Source: Patescibacteria group bacterium (GTDB lineage: Bacteria; Patescibacteriota; UBA1384; UBA12157; JAENIV01). From it: DNA of 51,245 nucleotides. This document shows, piece by piece, positions 12,620 through 19,473 of this stretch (within the stretch, counting starts at the first letter, position 1; each line of letters starts with the position of its first letter). A model generated the notes under the pieces. The model saw only the letters and a program-made list of their open reading frames with translations, searched no databases and was not told the origin of the DNA. The translations under genes were made by a program, and so were the position numbers. The DNA lies in NCBI GenBank assembly GCA_023485405.1, contig JAMCZU010000002.1, positions 1 through 51,245 of the forward strand. Direction: 5' to 3'.

Positions 12620-14062
12620 ATGAAAGATCAATTTTCAAGAAATTTTTTGATTGCATTATTTGGCGCTCTTTTGGCAGTCGCCGTGGGTTTTTTAATTGCT
12701 AAAACCGCTTTTTTGGGGTTATTAATTATTCCTCTGGCAGTTATCGCTCTAATTATTGTTTATCTGGTTGTTCGGTCGCCTGAACTTGGTTGGCTTTTGA
12801 TTGTTTTCTTTTTACCCTTTGAAAGAGTACCTTCCTATGAAATAGGGGGAATTAATCTTAAAATCAACACCTTTTTGGGATTTCTAACCTTAATTGCCTG
12901 GATTTTAGCGTTAATGTTCAAAGGTAAAAAATACAAAGTTCAACCAAATTTTCTCAGCATTCCACTGTTTTTATTTGTCATGGCATTATTGCTTTCACTT
13001 GCTCAAGCAGTTAATTTTTCTCGAGCTGTTTCAGTTTTAATCTTTACTATATTTACAATTATTCTTTCAATTATGGCGGTTAATATGGTTTATTCAAAGG
13101 AAACTTTGCGTAAAACGATTTTAGTTTTATTTTTTTCGGCGTTAGTAGTGAGTCTTTTTGGATTGTTTCAGTTTGGCGGTGATGTGGTAGGATTGCCACA
13201 ATCCTTAACCCTTTTAAAAGAAGGATACACTTCCGTTGTTTTCGGGTTTCCCAGGGTGCAGGCTTTTTCAATGGAACCCTTATACTTTGCTAATTATCTT
13301 TTAATCCCCATTAGTGTTGGTTTAGCTCTTTTTATCAATCGAGTGGAGCCAATCAAACGATGGTGGATGGCTGGTTTAATCGGTTTAATCTTATTGAATT
13401 TCATTTTAACTGTTTCACGAGGTGGTTATTTGGGATTAATCGGCTCATTTTTAGTTTTAGGATTTTTGCTTTTTAAAAAGCTATTTAATTGGAAAACAAT
13501 TTTAATTGGCTTAGTGACAGTGATTATTGTTATTTACGGGGTGGCTTTTGCTCTGTCAAAAGGCGAAACTCGTGCCACAATTGAATTTTTAGGTCATATT
13601 CAGCTTCAAGATATAAATAATGGAGAATCGGTCGCGGGTAGATTGATTACCTTTAAACAAGGAATGCAAGCTTTTTACACCAGTCCTATTTTTGGCATTG
13701 GCCCGGGCAATTATGGTCCGTGGGCGACATTTTACCCGGACGCACGACCAATAACTGGTTGGCCGATCGTTAATAATGAATTTATCGAAATTTTGGCTGA
13801 AACTGGGCTGGTTGGGATGATTACTTTTTCTTTATTGATCTTATTTTTGAGTGTCAGGACTTTTATGGCTTTAAAATACGCCCATGATGTTTTTCTAAGA
13901 TCCGTCTTAATTGGACTTTTCGCCGCTTTTGTTGGAATCTTAATTCAGTATAATTTTATGTCAACTCTTTATATAATCCATGTATGGGTGTTGATAGGAT
14001 TATTGGTAGCGGTGCAGAATATTATATTAAAATCAAAAATTAAAAATCAAATATCAAAATGA
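12620..14062 (+). CDS. O-antigen ligase/polymerase-like membrane protein
   Basis: Multi-TM; GRLITFKQGMQAFYTSPIFGIGPGNYG. Confidence 0.8.
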   Translation: MKDQFSRNFLIALFGALLAVAVGFLIAKTAFLGLLIIPLAVIALIIVYLVVRSPELGWLLIVFFLPFERVPSYEIGGINLKINTFLGFLTLIAWILALMFKGKKYKVQPNFLSIPLFLFVMALLLSLAQAVNFSRAVSVLIFTIFTIILSIMAVNMVYSKETLRKTILVLFFSALVVSLFGLFQFGGDVVGLPQSLTLLKEGYTSVVFGFPRVQAFSMEPLYFANYLLIPISVGLALFINRVEPIKRWWMAGLIGLILLNFILTVSRGGYLGLIGSFLVLGFLLFKKLFNWKTILIGLVTVIIVIYGVAFALSKGETRATIEFLGHIQLQDINNGESVAGRLITFKQGMQAFYTSPIFGIGPGNYGPWATFYPDARPITGWPIVNNEFIEILAETGLVGMITFSLLILFLSVRTFMALKYAHDVFLRSVLIGLFAAFVGILIQYNFMSTLYIIHVWVLIGLLVAVQNIILKSKIKNQISK

Positions 14063-14116
14063 AAATTTAAAATTCAAAAATAATTCTTTTTACATTATTC
14101 TTTGTCATTTTGATTT

Positions 14117-15325
14117 TTGATATTTGCATTTTGCATTAACATTATGATTTATTTAATTTCTTTAATCTTACTATTACTGCCGACTTACTTAATTCGTTTT
14201 TCGATATTTAATATTCCAACGACTTTTTTGGAAATTTTAATATACATTATTTTTATTTATGGTCTTTTTAGGGCTCGAAAGACAGGTTTTAGAGCGATTT
14301 CCTTAAAAATTATTTTGCCAATCGTGCTTTTAATTATTGCCTTGACTATTTCAACTGTTGTTTCCCCTGATAAAAGAGCGGCTTTAGGTGAATTTAAAGG
14401 TTTTTTTATTGATCCTATTTTGGTTTTCTGGCTTATTTTTCAATTTGTCAAAGAAAAAGATTTACCTAAAGTTTTTTGGAGTTTAATTTTTTCTGGAACT
14501 TTTGTGGCGGTTCACACCATTATTCAGAAATTATTAGGCAATACTACTTCTGATGGGCGGGTAATTGGCATTTTTGGCTATTCACCAAACTTTGTGGCTT
14601 TATTTTTGGCACCAATTACGGTTTTAGTTGCGGCTTATGGATTTCAATTCATGATTCAAAAACGGTGGTTTTTAAGTATTAGTGCTTGGTTATTAGTTAT
14701 TTTAAATTTTATTGCCATTTATTTTTCTGGGAGTCGTGGAGGAATTTTGGCCATTGCTGCCGGCCTTGGTATTTATGTAATTTTAAACTTTTGGAGCTGG
14801 ATTAAAACGCGACTTTCGGCCCAAATTATGATTGGTATTTTAATTATTATGGCTATTTATACTTCATGGATATTATTTCGGCCAGATTTTACGGTGACCC
14901 AAACTTCCGGTGGTCGGGTAGCAACTTCTAATAATTTACGTTGGCAGATTTGGGAGACTTCTTTAGAAATGATTAAAAATCACCCGATTTTAGGAGTAGG
15001 TTTGGGTAATTTTCAAAATGCTTTTTCGGAATTGACCAAGAATCGAGGTAATTTTCCGGAATATATTACCCCGCAGGCGGCTACGCCACACAATATTTTT
15101 CTGATGTTTTACCTTGCAACCGGTATTTTGGGTCTAGTTGCTTTTCTTTGGCTCTTGGTTTTATTTTTCCGCGAAGGCTTAAAAAAACTAAATTCAAAAT
15201 CGGTCGTGATTATGTTGGCGGTCCTTTTTTCAATCATTGCCTACGGTTTAATTGAATCTTCTATTTGGAAGAATGATCTAAGTATTATTTTTTGGACAAT
15301 GGGGGGACTAATTTGGATTATTTAA
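14117..15325 (+). CDS. O-antigen ligase-like membrane protein
   Basis: Multi-TM; SGSRGGILAIAAG, LRWQIWETSLEMIKNHPILGVGLGNF. Confidence 0.8.
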   Translation: MIFAFCINIMIYLISLILLLLPTYLIRFSIFNIPTTFLEILIYIIFIYGLFRARKTGFRAISLKIILPIVLLIIALTISTVVSPDKRAALGEFKGFFIDPILVFWLIFQFVKEKDLPKVFWSLIFSGTFVAVHTIIQKLLGNTTSDGRVIGIFGYSPNFVALFLAPITVLVAAYGFQFMIQKRWFLSISAWLLVILNFIAIYFSGSRGGILAIAAGLGIYVILNFWSWIKTRLSAQIMIGILIIMAIYTSWILFRPDFTVTQTSGGRVATSNNLRWQIWETSLEMIKNHPILGVGLGNFQNAFSELTKNRGNFPEYITPQAATPHNIFLMFYLATGILGLVAFLWLLVLFFREGLKKLNSKSVVIMLAVLFSIIAYGLIESSIWKNDLSIIFWTMGGLIWII

Positions 15326-16986
15326 AACAAAACTTTGAAAAATTTGCTTTAGTTTTTATTCTTCTTATCTCTTTAACCCTGATGATTTTTTCGAGTGCTT
15401 CAGATTCCCTGACTGTTGATGAAAAAGTTCATATTTCGGCGGGTTATCTTCACACTTGGAAGGGAAATTATCTTTTTAACAGCGAGCATCCACCGCTTTT
15501 AAATGATTTGGCAGGGTTTTTTGCTCGGGCGGCTAAGCCAAATGTACCAGCCGTGCCAGCAAATTTTACTGGTGGAGACCAGTGGGAATATGGCGACATG
15601 TTTTTTTATTTGTCGGGCAATAACATTGATAAGCTTATTTTCTGGGCCCGCCTACCTTTTATTTTCTTAACTTTAGGTTTAATTTATCTGGTTTTTTTAT
15701 GGGCAAAAACGCTTTTTGGCGCGAAAGCAGGCTTGGTAGCGGCCACTTTAACTGCTTTTTCACCCAATATCTTAGCCCACGGTCGTTTGGCTACCACCGA
15801 TATTGGAGTGACTTTTTTCTTTCTTTTAACCTGCTGGGCCATACGTAAATATTACCTAAAACCAAATGTTAAAAACGCCGTATTTTTAGGACTAGCTGTG
15901 GCTTTAGTTTTACTTTCAAAGTTTTCTGGTTTAGTTATTTTGCCAATTGTTTTTTTAAGTCTTATGCTTTTGTGGTTTTTGAAAAAACCAAAATTTACTA
16001 CTTCTTTAGGTCAATTTCTTTTGATTTTAGCAATTCCATTAGTTTTGGTTTGGGGAACTTACGCCTTTTCGATGCGTTCCGATTTAATTTCTTTGCCACC
16101 GGTCTATATTACATCTAAAATATTAGGTTACAAGAATCTTTCTTCTCCATTGTCAAAGTGGTTAATTGTTCCTTATGACAAAGCTATTCAAGGTTTCGAA
16201 ATTCTTTCTGACCACAATACCTCTGGTCATTGGGCCTATCTTAACGGCGAGGTGGGTTACAATGGTTGGTGGTACTATTTTCCCTTGGTGATGCTTTACA
16301 AATTACCTTTGACGGAAATTATTTTATTAGCTTTAACGATATTTATATTTTGGAAAGTAAAGCTTCGTCCACCAGGCAGTTGGTTTGATTATTTTATCCT
16401 CTTTTTCCCACCCTTATTATTTTTGGCTATCTCGATGATTGGTCGAATTGACATTGGGATTCGTCATATTTTACCCATTTTGCCATTTTTCTATATTTTT
16501 ATAAGTAGCCTAGCTAATTTTAAAAATAAGATTTTTCAAAAATTAATATTTGTTTTGGTGGGAATCGAAGTAATAATTTGTATTCTAGCCTTTCCCAATT
16601 ATCTAACCTATTTTAATCAGATTGCCGGCGGAGCAAAAGGTGGAATTAAGCATCTTTCTGATTCAAATTTAGACTGGAATCAGAATATGAAAAGATTTGG
16701 GATTTATGCCAAAGAAAACAATATTAAAAAAGTTTATGAACTTTGTTGGGATGGGTATAGTTTTTCTGCTCAAGGGGTTCAAGCGGAAATTTTACCTGCC
16801 TCGCCTGACGCGAGTCAAGGCGGGCCTAATTCGCCGGTTAAAGGTGTGGTGGTCATTTGCGCTCAACAGATGGTGGTGCCGCCGGATGATTTTGACTTTG
16901 GGTGGGTTACAAAACATCCGCCGGATACGGTGGTGGGGAACGCGATGTATGTTTGGCGGTTTGATAAAATGCCTGATATAAATTAA
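15292..16986 (+). CDS. GT39/PMT-type glycosyltransferase, copy 1
   Basis: DEKVHISAGYLHTWKGNYLFNSEHPPLLNDLAG; paralogue of 17079-18674. Confidence 0.85.
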   Translation: MDNGGTNLDYLKQNFEKFALVFILLISLTLMIFSSASDSLTVDEKVHISAGYLHTWKGNYLFNSEHPPLLNDLAGFFARAAKPNVPAVPANFTGGDQWEYGDMFFYLSGNNIDKLIFWARLPFIFLTLGLIYLVFLWAKTLFGAKAGLVAATLTAFSPNILAHGRLATTDIGVTFFFLLTCWAIRKYYLKPNVKNAVFLGLAVALVLLSKFSGLVILPIVFLSLMLLWFLKKPKFTTSLGQFLLILAIPLVLVWGTYAFSMRSDLISLPPVYITSKILGYKNLSSPLSKWLIVPYDKAIQGFEILSDHNTSGHWAYLNGEVGYNGWWYYFPLVMLYKLPLTEIILLALTIFIFWKVKLRPPGSWFDYFILFFPPLLFLAISMIGRIDIGIRHILPILPFFYIFISSLANFKNKIFQKLIFVLVGIEVIICILAFPNYLTYFNQIAGGAKGGIKHLSDSNLDWNQNMKRFGIYAKENNIKKVYELCWDGYSFSAQGVQAEILPASPDASQGGPNSPVKGVVVICAQQMVVPPDDFDFGWVTKHPPDTVVGNAMYVWRFDKMPDIN

Positions 16987-17078
16987 TAATTTTCAATTTT
17001 AAATTTCAAATCAATTTTAAAATTCGAATTTCGAATTTGAATTAAAATTCTAAATTTAAAATTTGAAATTTATATTAT

Positions 17079-18674
17079 ATGATCTTAAATTTTCTAAAAA
17101 AATATTGGATTGCTGGAGTACTAGGTATAATTATCCTTGTCTCATTTTTGTTAATGTTTTTTTCTGCCAAATCAGACTCGGTTACCAATGATGAAAAAGT
17201 ACACATCACAGCTGGTTATTTGCACGTTTGGAAAGGCAATTACCTTTTTAATAGCGAGCATCCACCTTTACTTAATGATTTGGCAGGCCTTTTTGCAAAA
17301 TTAGCTAGACCAAATTTACCAGAAAAACCGCTTTCTTCTTTTAATTCCGGGGCTGATCAATGGGAGCTTGCTGATCTTTTCTTTTATAACTCGGGAAATA
17401 ATGTTGATAAAATTGTTTTTTTTGCGAGATTACCTTTTATTTTCTTAACTTTAGGTTTAATTTATCTGGTTTTTTTATGGGCAAAAACGCTTTTTGGTGC
17501 AAAAGCAGGCCTGGTAGCGGCCACTTTAACTGCTTTTTCACCCAATATTTTAGCGCACGGTCGTTTGGCCACCACCGATATTGGGGTGACTTTTTTCTTT
17601 CTTTTGACTTGTTGGTTACTCAGAAAATATTATTTGAAATCAACTTGGCAAAATGCTTTATGGCTAAGTTTAGGTATTAGCTTTGTGCTTTTAGCCAAAT
17701 TTTCTGGAGTAATTATTTTGCCGGTGATTTTTTTAGGGTTGATATTTCTTTGGATTAATAAAAGACCAAAACTTCTTCTATTTTTAGGACAAATTTTTAT
17801 TTTAATCATTTTGCCAATTATGATGATTTGGGCTCTTTATATTTTTTCCTCGCGAGAAAACTTAATAAATTCCTCAGCACTAATAATGCCTTTTAAACAG
17901 TTTGTTATCGGTTTAAAAACAATCATAAATCATAATAGCCAAGGACATCTGACTTATCTTAATGGCAAGTTAAGTAATCAAGGTTGGTGGTATTATTTTC
18001 CCTTAGTTCTATGGTATAAAATGACTTTGCCAGAACTAACATTATTGAGTTTTTCAATTGCTACTTTCTTCTTGATTGAAAAACCCAGAATCAATTCTTT
18101 TGACGAATTTTTAATTATTTTCCCACCCTTATTGTTTTTAGCTGTTTCAATGATTGGGCATATTGATATTGGCATTCGCCATATTTTAGTTCTTTTGCCG
18201 TTTTTTTATATTTTCATTAGCTATTTGGTTAACAATCAAGATCGTTCTTTGAAATTAATATTGCCAATATTAATTAGTGCTCAAGTAATAATTTGTATTC
18301 TAGCCTTTCCGAATTATATTGCTTATTTTAATCAAATTGCCGGTGGAGCAAAAGGTGGAATTAAGCATCTTTCTGATTCAAACTTGGATTGGGATCAAAA
18401 CATGAAAAGATTTAAAAAATATGTTCAAGAAAATAAAATCGAAAAAGTGTATGAAGATTTTTATAATGGCAATTCTTTAACTTATTATGGGATAAATTAC
18501 GACGATGTACCCAAAAAACCGATTAATGGTGTTGTGGCAATTTCGGCGCAATGGCTAGTAGTTTCCCGAGATAGATTCGATATTGGTTGGGTGAAGAAAT
18601 ATCCGCCTGATGAGATTATTTCTAATGGCATTTATATTTGGCGATTTGATCTAAAACCGGTAGAATTAAGATAG
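17079..18674 (+). CDS. GT39/PMT-type glycosyltransferase, copy 2
   Basis: DEKVHITAGYLHVWKGNYLFNSEHPPLLNDLAG. Confidence 0.85.
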   Translation: MILNFLKKYWIAGVLGIIILVSFLLMFFSAKSDSVTNDEKVHITAGYLHVWKGNYLFNSEHPPLLNDLAGLFAKLARPNLPEKPLSSFNSGADQWELADLFFYNSGNNVDKIVFFARLPFIFLTLGLIYLVFLWAKTLFGAKAGLVAATLTAFSPNILAHGRLATTDIGVTFFFLLTCWLLRKYYLKSTWQNALWLSLGISFVLLAKFSGVIILPVIFLGLIFLWINKRPKLLLFLGQIFILIILPIMMIWALYIFSSRENLINSSALIMPFKQFVIGLKTIINHNSQGHLTYLNGKLSNQGWWYYFPLVLWYKMTLPELTLLSFSIATFFLIEKPRINSFDEFLIIFPPLLFLAVSMIGHIDIGIRHILVLLPFFYIFISYLVNNQDRSLKLILPILISAQVIICILAFPNYIAYFNQIAGGAKGGIKHLSDSNLDWDQNMKRFKKYVQENKIEKVYEDFYNGNSLTYYGINYDDVPKKPINGVVAISAQWLVVSRDRFDIGWVKKYPPDEIISNGIYIWRFDLKPVELR

Positions 18675-18681
18675 GTTAAAT

Positions 18682-19473
18682 ATGTTTTTATCGGTTATTA
18701 TCCCGGCTTACAATGAGGAAAAGCGACTTCCAGCTACTTTGCAAAAAGTTCGGGATTATTTAGACCACCAAAATATCACCTACGAGGTGATAGTGGTTAA
18801 CGATGGTTCAACCGATGACACTTCCAAGGTGTCAGTGAGGTTAATTAAGGATTGGCCAAATTTTCGATTGATTGATAATAAAAAAAATCGGGGGAAAGGG
18901 GCGGTGGTAAAACTTGGGATACTTGAGGCCAAAGGTGATTGGCGGCTGTTTATGGATGCGGATGGGTCAACAGAAATATCAGAATTGGATAAATTCTGGC
19001 CATATGTTAAAAATTTCAAATTTCAAATTTCAAATTTCAAATCAATTTCAAAATTAGAATTTCAAAATTCGAGTTTGAATGAAAATTTATCATTTGAAAT
19101 CATCATAGGTTCAAGATATCTGGATAAAGATTCGATTAAAATTAAACAACCACTGAACCGAAGAATTGTTTCGCGGCTGGGCAATTTATTAGTGCGAATT
19201 TTATTGGGGATCAAGTCGGTTGATACTCAATGCGGGTTTAAATTGTTTTCGGCGCGCGCGACTGAAAAGATTTTCCCATTACAAACGATTACGCGTTGGG
19301 GTTTTGATATAGAAATTTTAGCCATTGCCATCAAAAAAGGTTATAAAATTAAAGAAGTGCCGGTTGATTGGCGCGATGCCGCAGGCTCACAAGTTAAAAA
19401 ATCCGCCGCTTTTAAGACTTTAAAAGAACTCATACAAATAAAGTGGAATATGTTAAAAGGGAAATACAAATAA
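18682..19473 (+). CDS. GT2, dolichyl-phosphate glucosyltransferase-like, with internal repeat-derived segment
   Basis: SVIIPAYNEEKRLPATL, VVNDGSTDDT, DADGSTE, IIIGSRYL. Confidence 0.9.
   Translation: MFLSVIIPAYNEEKRLPATLQKVRDYLDHQNITYEVIVVNDGSTDDTSKVSVRLIKDWPNFRLIDNKKNRGKGAVVKLGILEAKGDWRLFMDADGSTEISELDKFWPYVKNFKFQISNFKSISKLEFQNSSLNENLSFEIIIGSRYLDKDSIKIKQPLNRRIVSRLGNLLVRILLGIKSVDTQCGFKLFSARATEKIFPLQTITRWGFDIEILAIAIKKGYKIKEVPVDWRDAAGSQVKKSAAFKTLKELIQIKWNMLKGKYK

Follow-up and report, generated by a model that had tools for sequence, protein, structure and literature searches.

The Rickettsia palindromic elements (RPE; Ogata et al. 2000, 2002) are repeats of around 150 bp that are fused in frame to unrelated genes, as summarised in a 2024 review (PMC10969869). 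Shorter intragenic repeats have been described by Di Nocera et al. (2013, PMC3733652): the GTAG/CGTC-tagged REPs, which include RPE-4 and RPE-6, are imperfect palindromes of 20-40 bp, some of them located within DNA-repair and tRNA-synthetase genes, and the CGTC REPs have no known transposase. According to the same work most REPs are intergenic, and transposases of the RAYT class (REP-associated tyrosine transposases) have been reported to act on imperfect single-stranded hairpins. These transposases belong to the RAYT/TIRYT transposons (REPtrons/TIRtrons, PMC3733652).

The element analysed here is a 30-bp palindrome located inside a glycosyltransferase gene, and its closest precedents, by analogy, are the RPE group and the shorter intragenic GTAG/CGTC REPs. 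As in RPE, near-identical palindromes are inserted in several unrelated protein genes, the insertion is in frame with a recurring peptide, and several families are present per genome. The two systems, compared by description, differ in length (around 150 bp in Rickettsia and 21-42 bp here), and the copies found here are few per genome, with one near-identical subtype extending across many CPR (Candidate Phyla Radiation) lineages and Omnitrophota records. Short imperfect palindromes, some of them intragenic, are also found among the GTAG/CGTC REPs, and the CGTC REPs resemble the element in having no known transposase; however, the element ends are CCTGCC and GGC[AG]GG, with no GTAG or CGTC tag at either of them, which places it outside that group, and most of the 30-mers are intragenic whereas most REPs are not. 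RAYT/TIRYT transposons are present in the same genomes and share hairpin ends and HUH/Y1 transposases, but in the examined genomes each of their genes has specific ends, which show no sequence relation to the element. Membership among RAYT-borne REPs (REPtrons) was also rejected, as the palindrome flanks no examined RAYT gene. No description of such elements in CPR bacteria was found in the open-access literature.

The element, its host gene and the polarity of the insertion

The element (CCTGCCTCGCCTGACGCGAGTCAAGGCGGG) occupies positions 16795-16824 on the plus strand of the window (the whole stretch of DNA analysed, 51,245 nucleotides), where it is read in frame as PASPDASQGG. Its G+C content is 73%, versus 36% for the window. 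The host gene (15292-16986, plus strand; ORF list and Pfam) encodes 564 amino acids counted from the first TTG, and the true start may be slightly downstream. The Pfam matches PF13231 (E 7.6e-13) and PF02366 (E 1.7e-6), of the PMT_2/PMT type, support a predicted GT39-like membrane glycosyltransferase. The adjacent paralogue (17079-18674, plus strand; ORF list), with 62% identity, lacks the element, and its empty site is located by alignment at about 18504-18512. The earlier note had named both copies GT39, and Pfam supports this for the first.

The element folds as GCC-(T)-CGCCTGAC-GCGA-GTC-(A)-AGGCGGGC, that is, an imperfect hairpin with bulges and a GCGA loop. This pairing is close to the one drawn in the earlier note, in which the start at 16795 was exact, the end at 16826 was two bases too far, and the hairpin was considered strong. 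The folding energy of the 61 nt around the element (-22.2 kcal/mol, z -1.76 against shuffles) is only modestly unusual, so hairpin strength alone is weak proof, and the statistical support for the element comes from its recurrence instead. The element occurs once in the window and is absent from shuffled windows.

Alignment of the two paralogues leaves a gap of exactly ten residues, with EILPASPDASQGGPNSPVKGVVVIC in the first copy against DDV----------PKKPINGVVAIS in the second. As long as only these two copies were known the polarity was open, and the second copy could have lost an ancestral loop for which the palindrome was the original coding sequence. Homologues of the host protein are present in 36 of the 61 genomes searched; 29 of them, from genomes elsewhere in the same class or phylum, were aligned, and the ten residues are absent from all 28 that span the site. 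Because none of these 28 has the residues, the paralogue, as judged from the alignment, preserves the ancestral state here, and it is the window gene that has gained an insertion. Loss in the second copy is thus refuted by the homologues, and it retains hardly any probability given that unrelated genes contain the same 30-mer. The in-frame insertion of about 30 bp in one copy and its lack in the other, as proposed from the window sequence, are therefore borne out, and the equivalent loop in most orthologues that would have reversed the polarity was seen in none of the 28. At the nucleotide level no empty site was obtained in very close relatives, the flanks in genus-mates being multi-copy or broken by contig ends.

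Another repeat, which is A+T-rich (AATTTCAAATTTCAAATC...), was noted at window 19005-19100, 16985-17080 and 14025-14130 and at L002 1760-1856. It is scattered between genes and is also present in frame inside the GT2 gene at 18682-19473 (KNFKFQISNFKSISKLEFQNSSLNEN), and the best solved homologue of this gene matches only on either side of the repeat.

Copies in the same genome and in other lineages

The genome search suggested in the earlier note yielded a second copy of the 30-mer, with one mismatch, on contig C1, where the C-terminal tail of a VirB4-like ATPase contains it in frame (MNPASTDASQGGPEE). In the same gene, 12 bases further on, there is the palindrome CCTGCCCGCAATGCTTCGCAAAGCGATGCAGGCGGG, which encodes PARNASQSDAGG. 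The pattern CCTGCC-N(8-30)-GGC[AG]GG is found at 10 places in the 832-kb genome versus one for the reversed control pattern; these counts come from pattern-based searches, in which copies outside the searched patterns are uncounted and diverged members are missed. Beyond the two 30-mers there are eight further palindromes with the same ends and a variable centre. Serine hydroxymethyltransferase (SHMT) hosts the insert PASTRGGSSTRGG between DK and WHANVQPYSGSPAN, and the two best-matching solved SHMT chains show a gap exactly there. In guanylate kinase (Gmk), where the insertion is also seen directly, an antisense palindrome is read as PPAGEAG; a GlmU N-domain protein hosts one read as PASPAGG, and another is located in a short ORF without recognised family. 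The members of 23 and 31 bp are outside genes or just 5' of a likely start codon.

Besides, in a 5' tRNA remnant with an intact tRNA-Val nearby, a 36-bp member (L007 1501-1536, contig C27) occupies the D-loop position (GGGTGGTTAGCTCAGTTGG, element, TAGAGCGCC). The disruption of a tRNA gene was considered for this place and rejected: the host is only a 5' remnant, and the flanks joined by script gave no tRNA call.

In genome_contigs, 14 contigs of other species contain a slightly degenerate form of the 30-mer, where about 3e-5 to 3e-4 would be expected by chance from base composition at 50-70% G+C. Three of these contigs are labelled Omnitrophota, one comes from an uncultured bacterium and one from a member of Patescibacteria; the others bear the names Nomura-, Howlett-, Davies-, Giovannoni-, Curtiss-, Levy- and Doudnabacteria. 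Metagenome bins are among the host records, and the Omnitrophota label could reflect mis-binning. In a sample of the phylum the 30-mer is present in 7 of 379 genomes (control 0), with 1-4 copies per genome, and the wider class with variable centre in 17 of 143 (control nearly zero). The search for phage or viral carriage gave no match to the 30-mer in the IMG/VR viral contigs. Short quasi-palindromes can form by slippage or templated duplication, and the modest folding z-score alone would be compatible with a hairpin that arose locally, with no mobile family behind it. This origin is refuted by the recurrence of near-identical 30-mers at different sites (14 contigs against roughly 1e-4 expected) and by the one-mismatch copy in an unrelated gene of the same genome, and its likelihood is considered negligible. 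The insertion claimed in the earlier note therefore belongs to a family of protein-coding palindromes dispersed far beyond the genome, a fact that was not visible to its reader.

Several related arrangements have been observed in these genomes. Five relatives (G005, G027, G035, G036 and G048) contain 30-114 CCTGCC-N-GGCRGG matches against 0-2 for the control, that is, they have their own palindrome families in high copy number; in these tallies a palindrome with GGCAGG ends is counted on each strand. In genome G111 (L110, L126, L132, L135) a 28-bp member is enclosed by a larger repeat (TGGATTCCGGATCAAG...TCCGGAATGAC), whose loop it occupies; one palindromic repeat thus appears to be nested inside another. 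The ORF of an Omnitrophota record (L198 1480-1570) contains the element and two other in-frame palindromes, CACCTCCGAGGTG before it and CCCTCCGTAGCTTCAGCGAAGGAGGG after it.

Reading frame, length and encoded peptide

The hosts of the 30-mer with a recognised family (Pfam/NCBIfam) are GT39, VirB4, ValRS, RpsB, DnaK, trigger factor, a Wzy_C ligase, UbiB, TopA, RplS, a CBM96 protein, HisRS, RpoA, an LTD/PKD protein and TPI. The subtype is strongly biased towards one strand and one frame: 14 of these 15 hosts read it in sense phase 0, as PASPDASQGG or close variants, TPI being the sole exception (sense phase 2, LPRLTRVKAG). Four of the six frames of the 30-mer are stop-free, and if each frame is given a chance of 1/4, 14 or more of the 15 hosts would share a given frame with a probability of 4e-8 (2e-6 at 1/3); six further phase-0 cases, in ORFs without recognised family, were left out of the 14/15 count. 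Most of the 30-mers found are inside genes, and eight copies are seemingly intergenic. The 21-bp subtype is less strict, since PASPAGG, PPAGEAG and LPRRQAG have all been seen.

All the counted in-gene members have a length divisible by three. When the 30-mers, of fixed length, are excluded, this holds for 14 of 14 members in genes versus 7 of 13 outside (probability about 0.006); both lists result from manual curation, few members make up the outside set, and one 28-bp member (L121), in an open frame without recognised family, was left out. The 28-bp forms of G111 are outside recognised genes, like the 23- and 31-bp forms mentioned above. Related to the peptide itself, the disfavoured open frames of the 30-mer encode basic peptides (LPRLTRVKAG, PALTRVRRGR, RLDSRQARQ) and the preferred frame a hydrophilic one, rich in Pro, Ala, Ser, Asp and Gly.

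The insert forms part of an N-terminal extension in RpsB and of the C-terminal tail in DnaK and RplS; in RpoA it is placed between the N- and C-terminal domains, and in TopA, another host in which the insertion is seen directly, the alignment locates it in a loop. Where they can be judged the sites are tails, linkers and loops, with surface placement suggested by sequence context and homologue gaps.

Origin and mobilisation of the family

Very probably, the 30-mer represents one copy of a selfish REP/RPE-like repeat, dispersed and non-autonomous, that inserts into CPR chromosomes and is filtered by selection. The ends of the family are constant and slightly asymmetric (CCTGCC...GGC[AG]GG), and the palindromic centre is variable. 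Copies would land at many sites and in many orientations, and those persisting in genes would be the ones with a length multiple of three and a frame that yields a hydrophilic flexible peptide, such as PASPDASQGG, PASPAGG, PARNASQSDAGG or PPAGEAG. This peptide would be accommodated in a surface loop, an inter-domain linker or a tail, so that the function of the protein would survive. The number of 30-mers per genome argues against selfish mobility, as it is low for an active selfish element. The flanks of the 30-mer copies are non-conserved, and no consistent target-site duplication was found in them.

CPR bacteria presumably depend on DNA uptake. This dependence could favour a palindrome kept as a functional signal (a DNA-uptake sequence, a protein-binding site or an RNA control element) whose coding copies are tolerated by-products, and a terminator-like hairpin (L100/L105) holds one copy in its loop. 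Nevertheless, the scarce 30-mers of each genome and the ten or so members of the wider class in the genome studied are much fewer than the copies of known uptake sequences, conservation does not extend to the centre, and copies are found in the middle of essential genes with one frame preferred, which makes such a signal improbable.

As regards the copying step of the selfish repeat, it would be carried out in trans by a transposase acting on a single-stranded-DNA hairpin. The likeliest kind of enzyme may be, tentatively, an HUH/Y1 transposase of the RAYT class, and mobilisation by the RAYT/TIRYT of the same genomes is a possible but rather doubtful part of this explanation. There are approximately nine REP-type tyrosine transposase genes in the genome studied, the two proteins examined match NCBIfam REP_Tyr_transpos (that of the genome studied scores under the curated cut-off), and the element, an imperfect hairpin with bulges, is of the kind on which the class acts (PMC3733652). 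On the other hand, the hairpins that flank these genes are gene-specific, several of them with TAACC...GGTTA outer ends, and none of those inspected in the genome studied and in relatives rich in the element is CCTGCC...GGCGGG. Besides, no Y1_Tnp match was obtained in G036 (genome 86% complete), in which related palindromes abound. RAYT ends were accordingly rejected as the source of the element in these genomes: each of the REP-type genes examined has either hairpin ends of its own, unlike those of the element, or none, and no cognate transposase was linked to the element ends. With regard to the features of a MITE, the whole element is itself an inverted repeat, and an autonomous partner with matching ends was not found among the Y1 transposases examined.

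Two observations concern the transposase genes themselves. Those of the genome studied (L078-L085) bear in most cases a private hairpin pair on both sides, and they constitute a set of diversified RAYT/TIRYT units in a single 832-kb genome. A REP-type transposase of another genome, G145 (L141 1884-1925), itself bears CCCGCC...GGCAGG palindromes in an unusually long open frame of 306 amino acids.

It could also be, with somewhat less than an even chance, that very short protein-coding palindromes move between distant ultra-small lineages (many CPR groups and Omnitrophota) by a new mobilisation route, repeatedly adding the same disordered peptide to essential proteins. Rickettsia is the best-known source of protein-coding palindromes, and the 2024 review considered the same route of protein change conceivable in other prokaryotes (PMC10969869). 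Here they are found in CPR bacteria, where the targets include ribosomal proteins, the RNA polymerase alpha subunit, chaperones and tRNA synthetases. The inserts constitute a natural catalogue of sites in essential proteins that tolerate an identical ten-residue insert, and a warning for the annotation and structure prediction of CPR proteins. The element is, in addition, a possible marker of DNA exchange among uncultured lineages.
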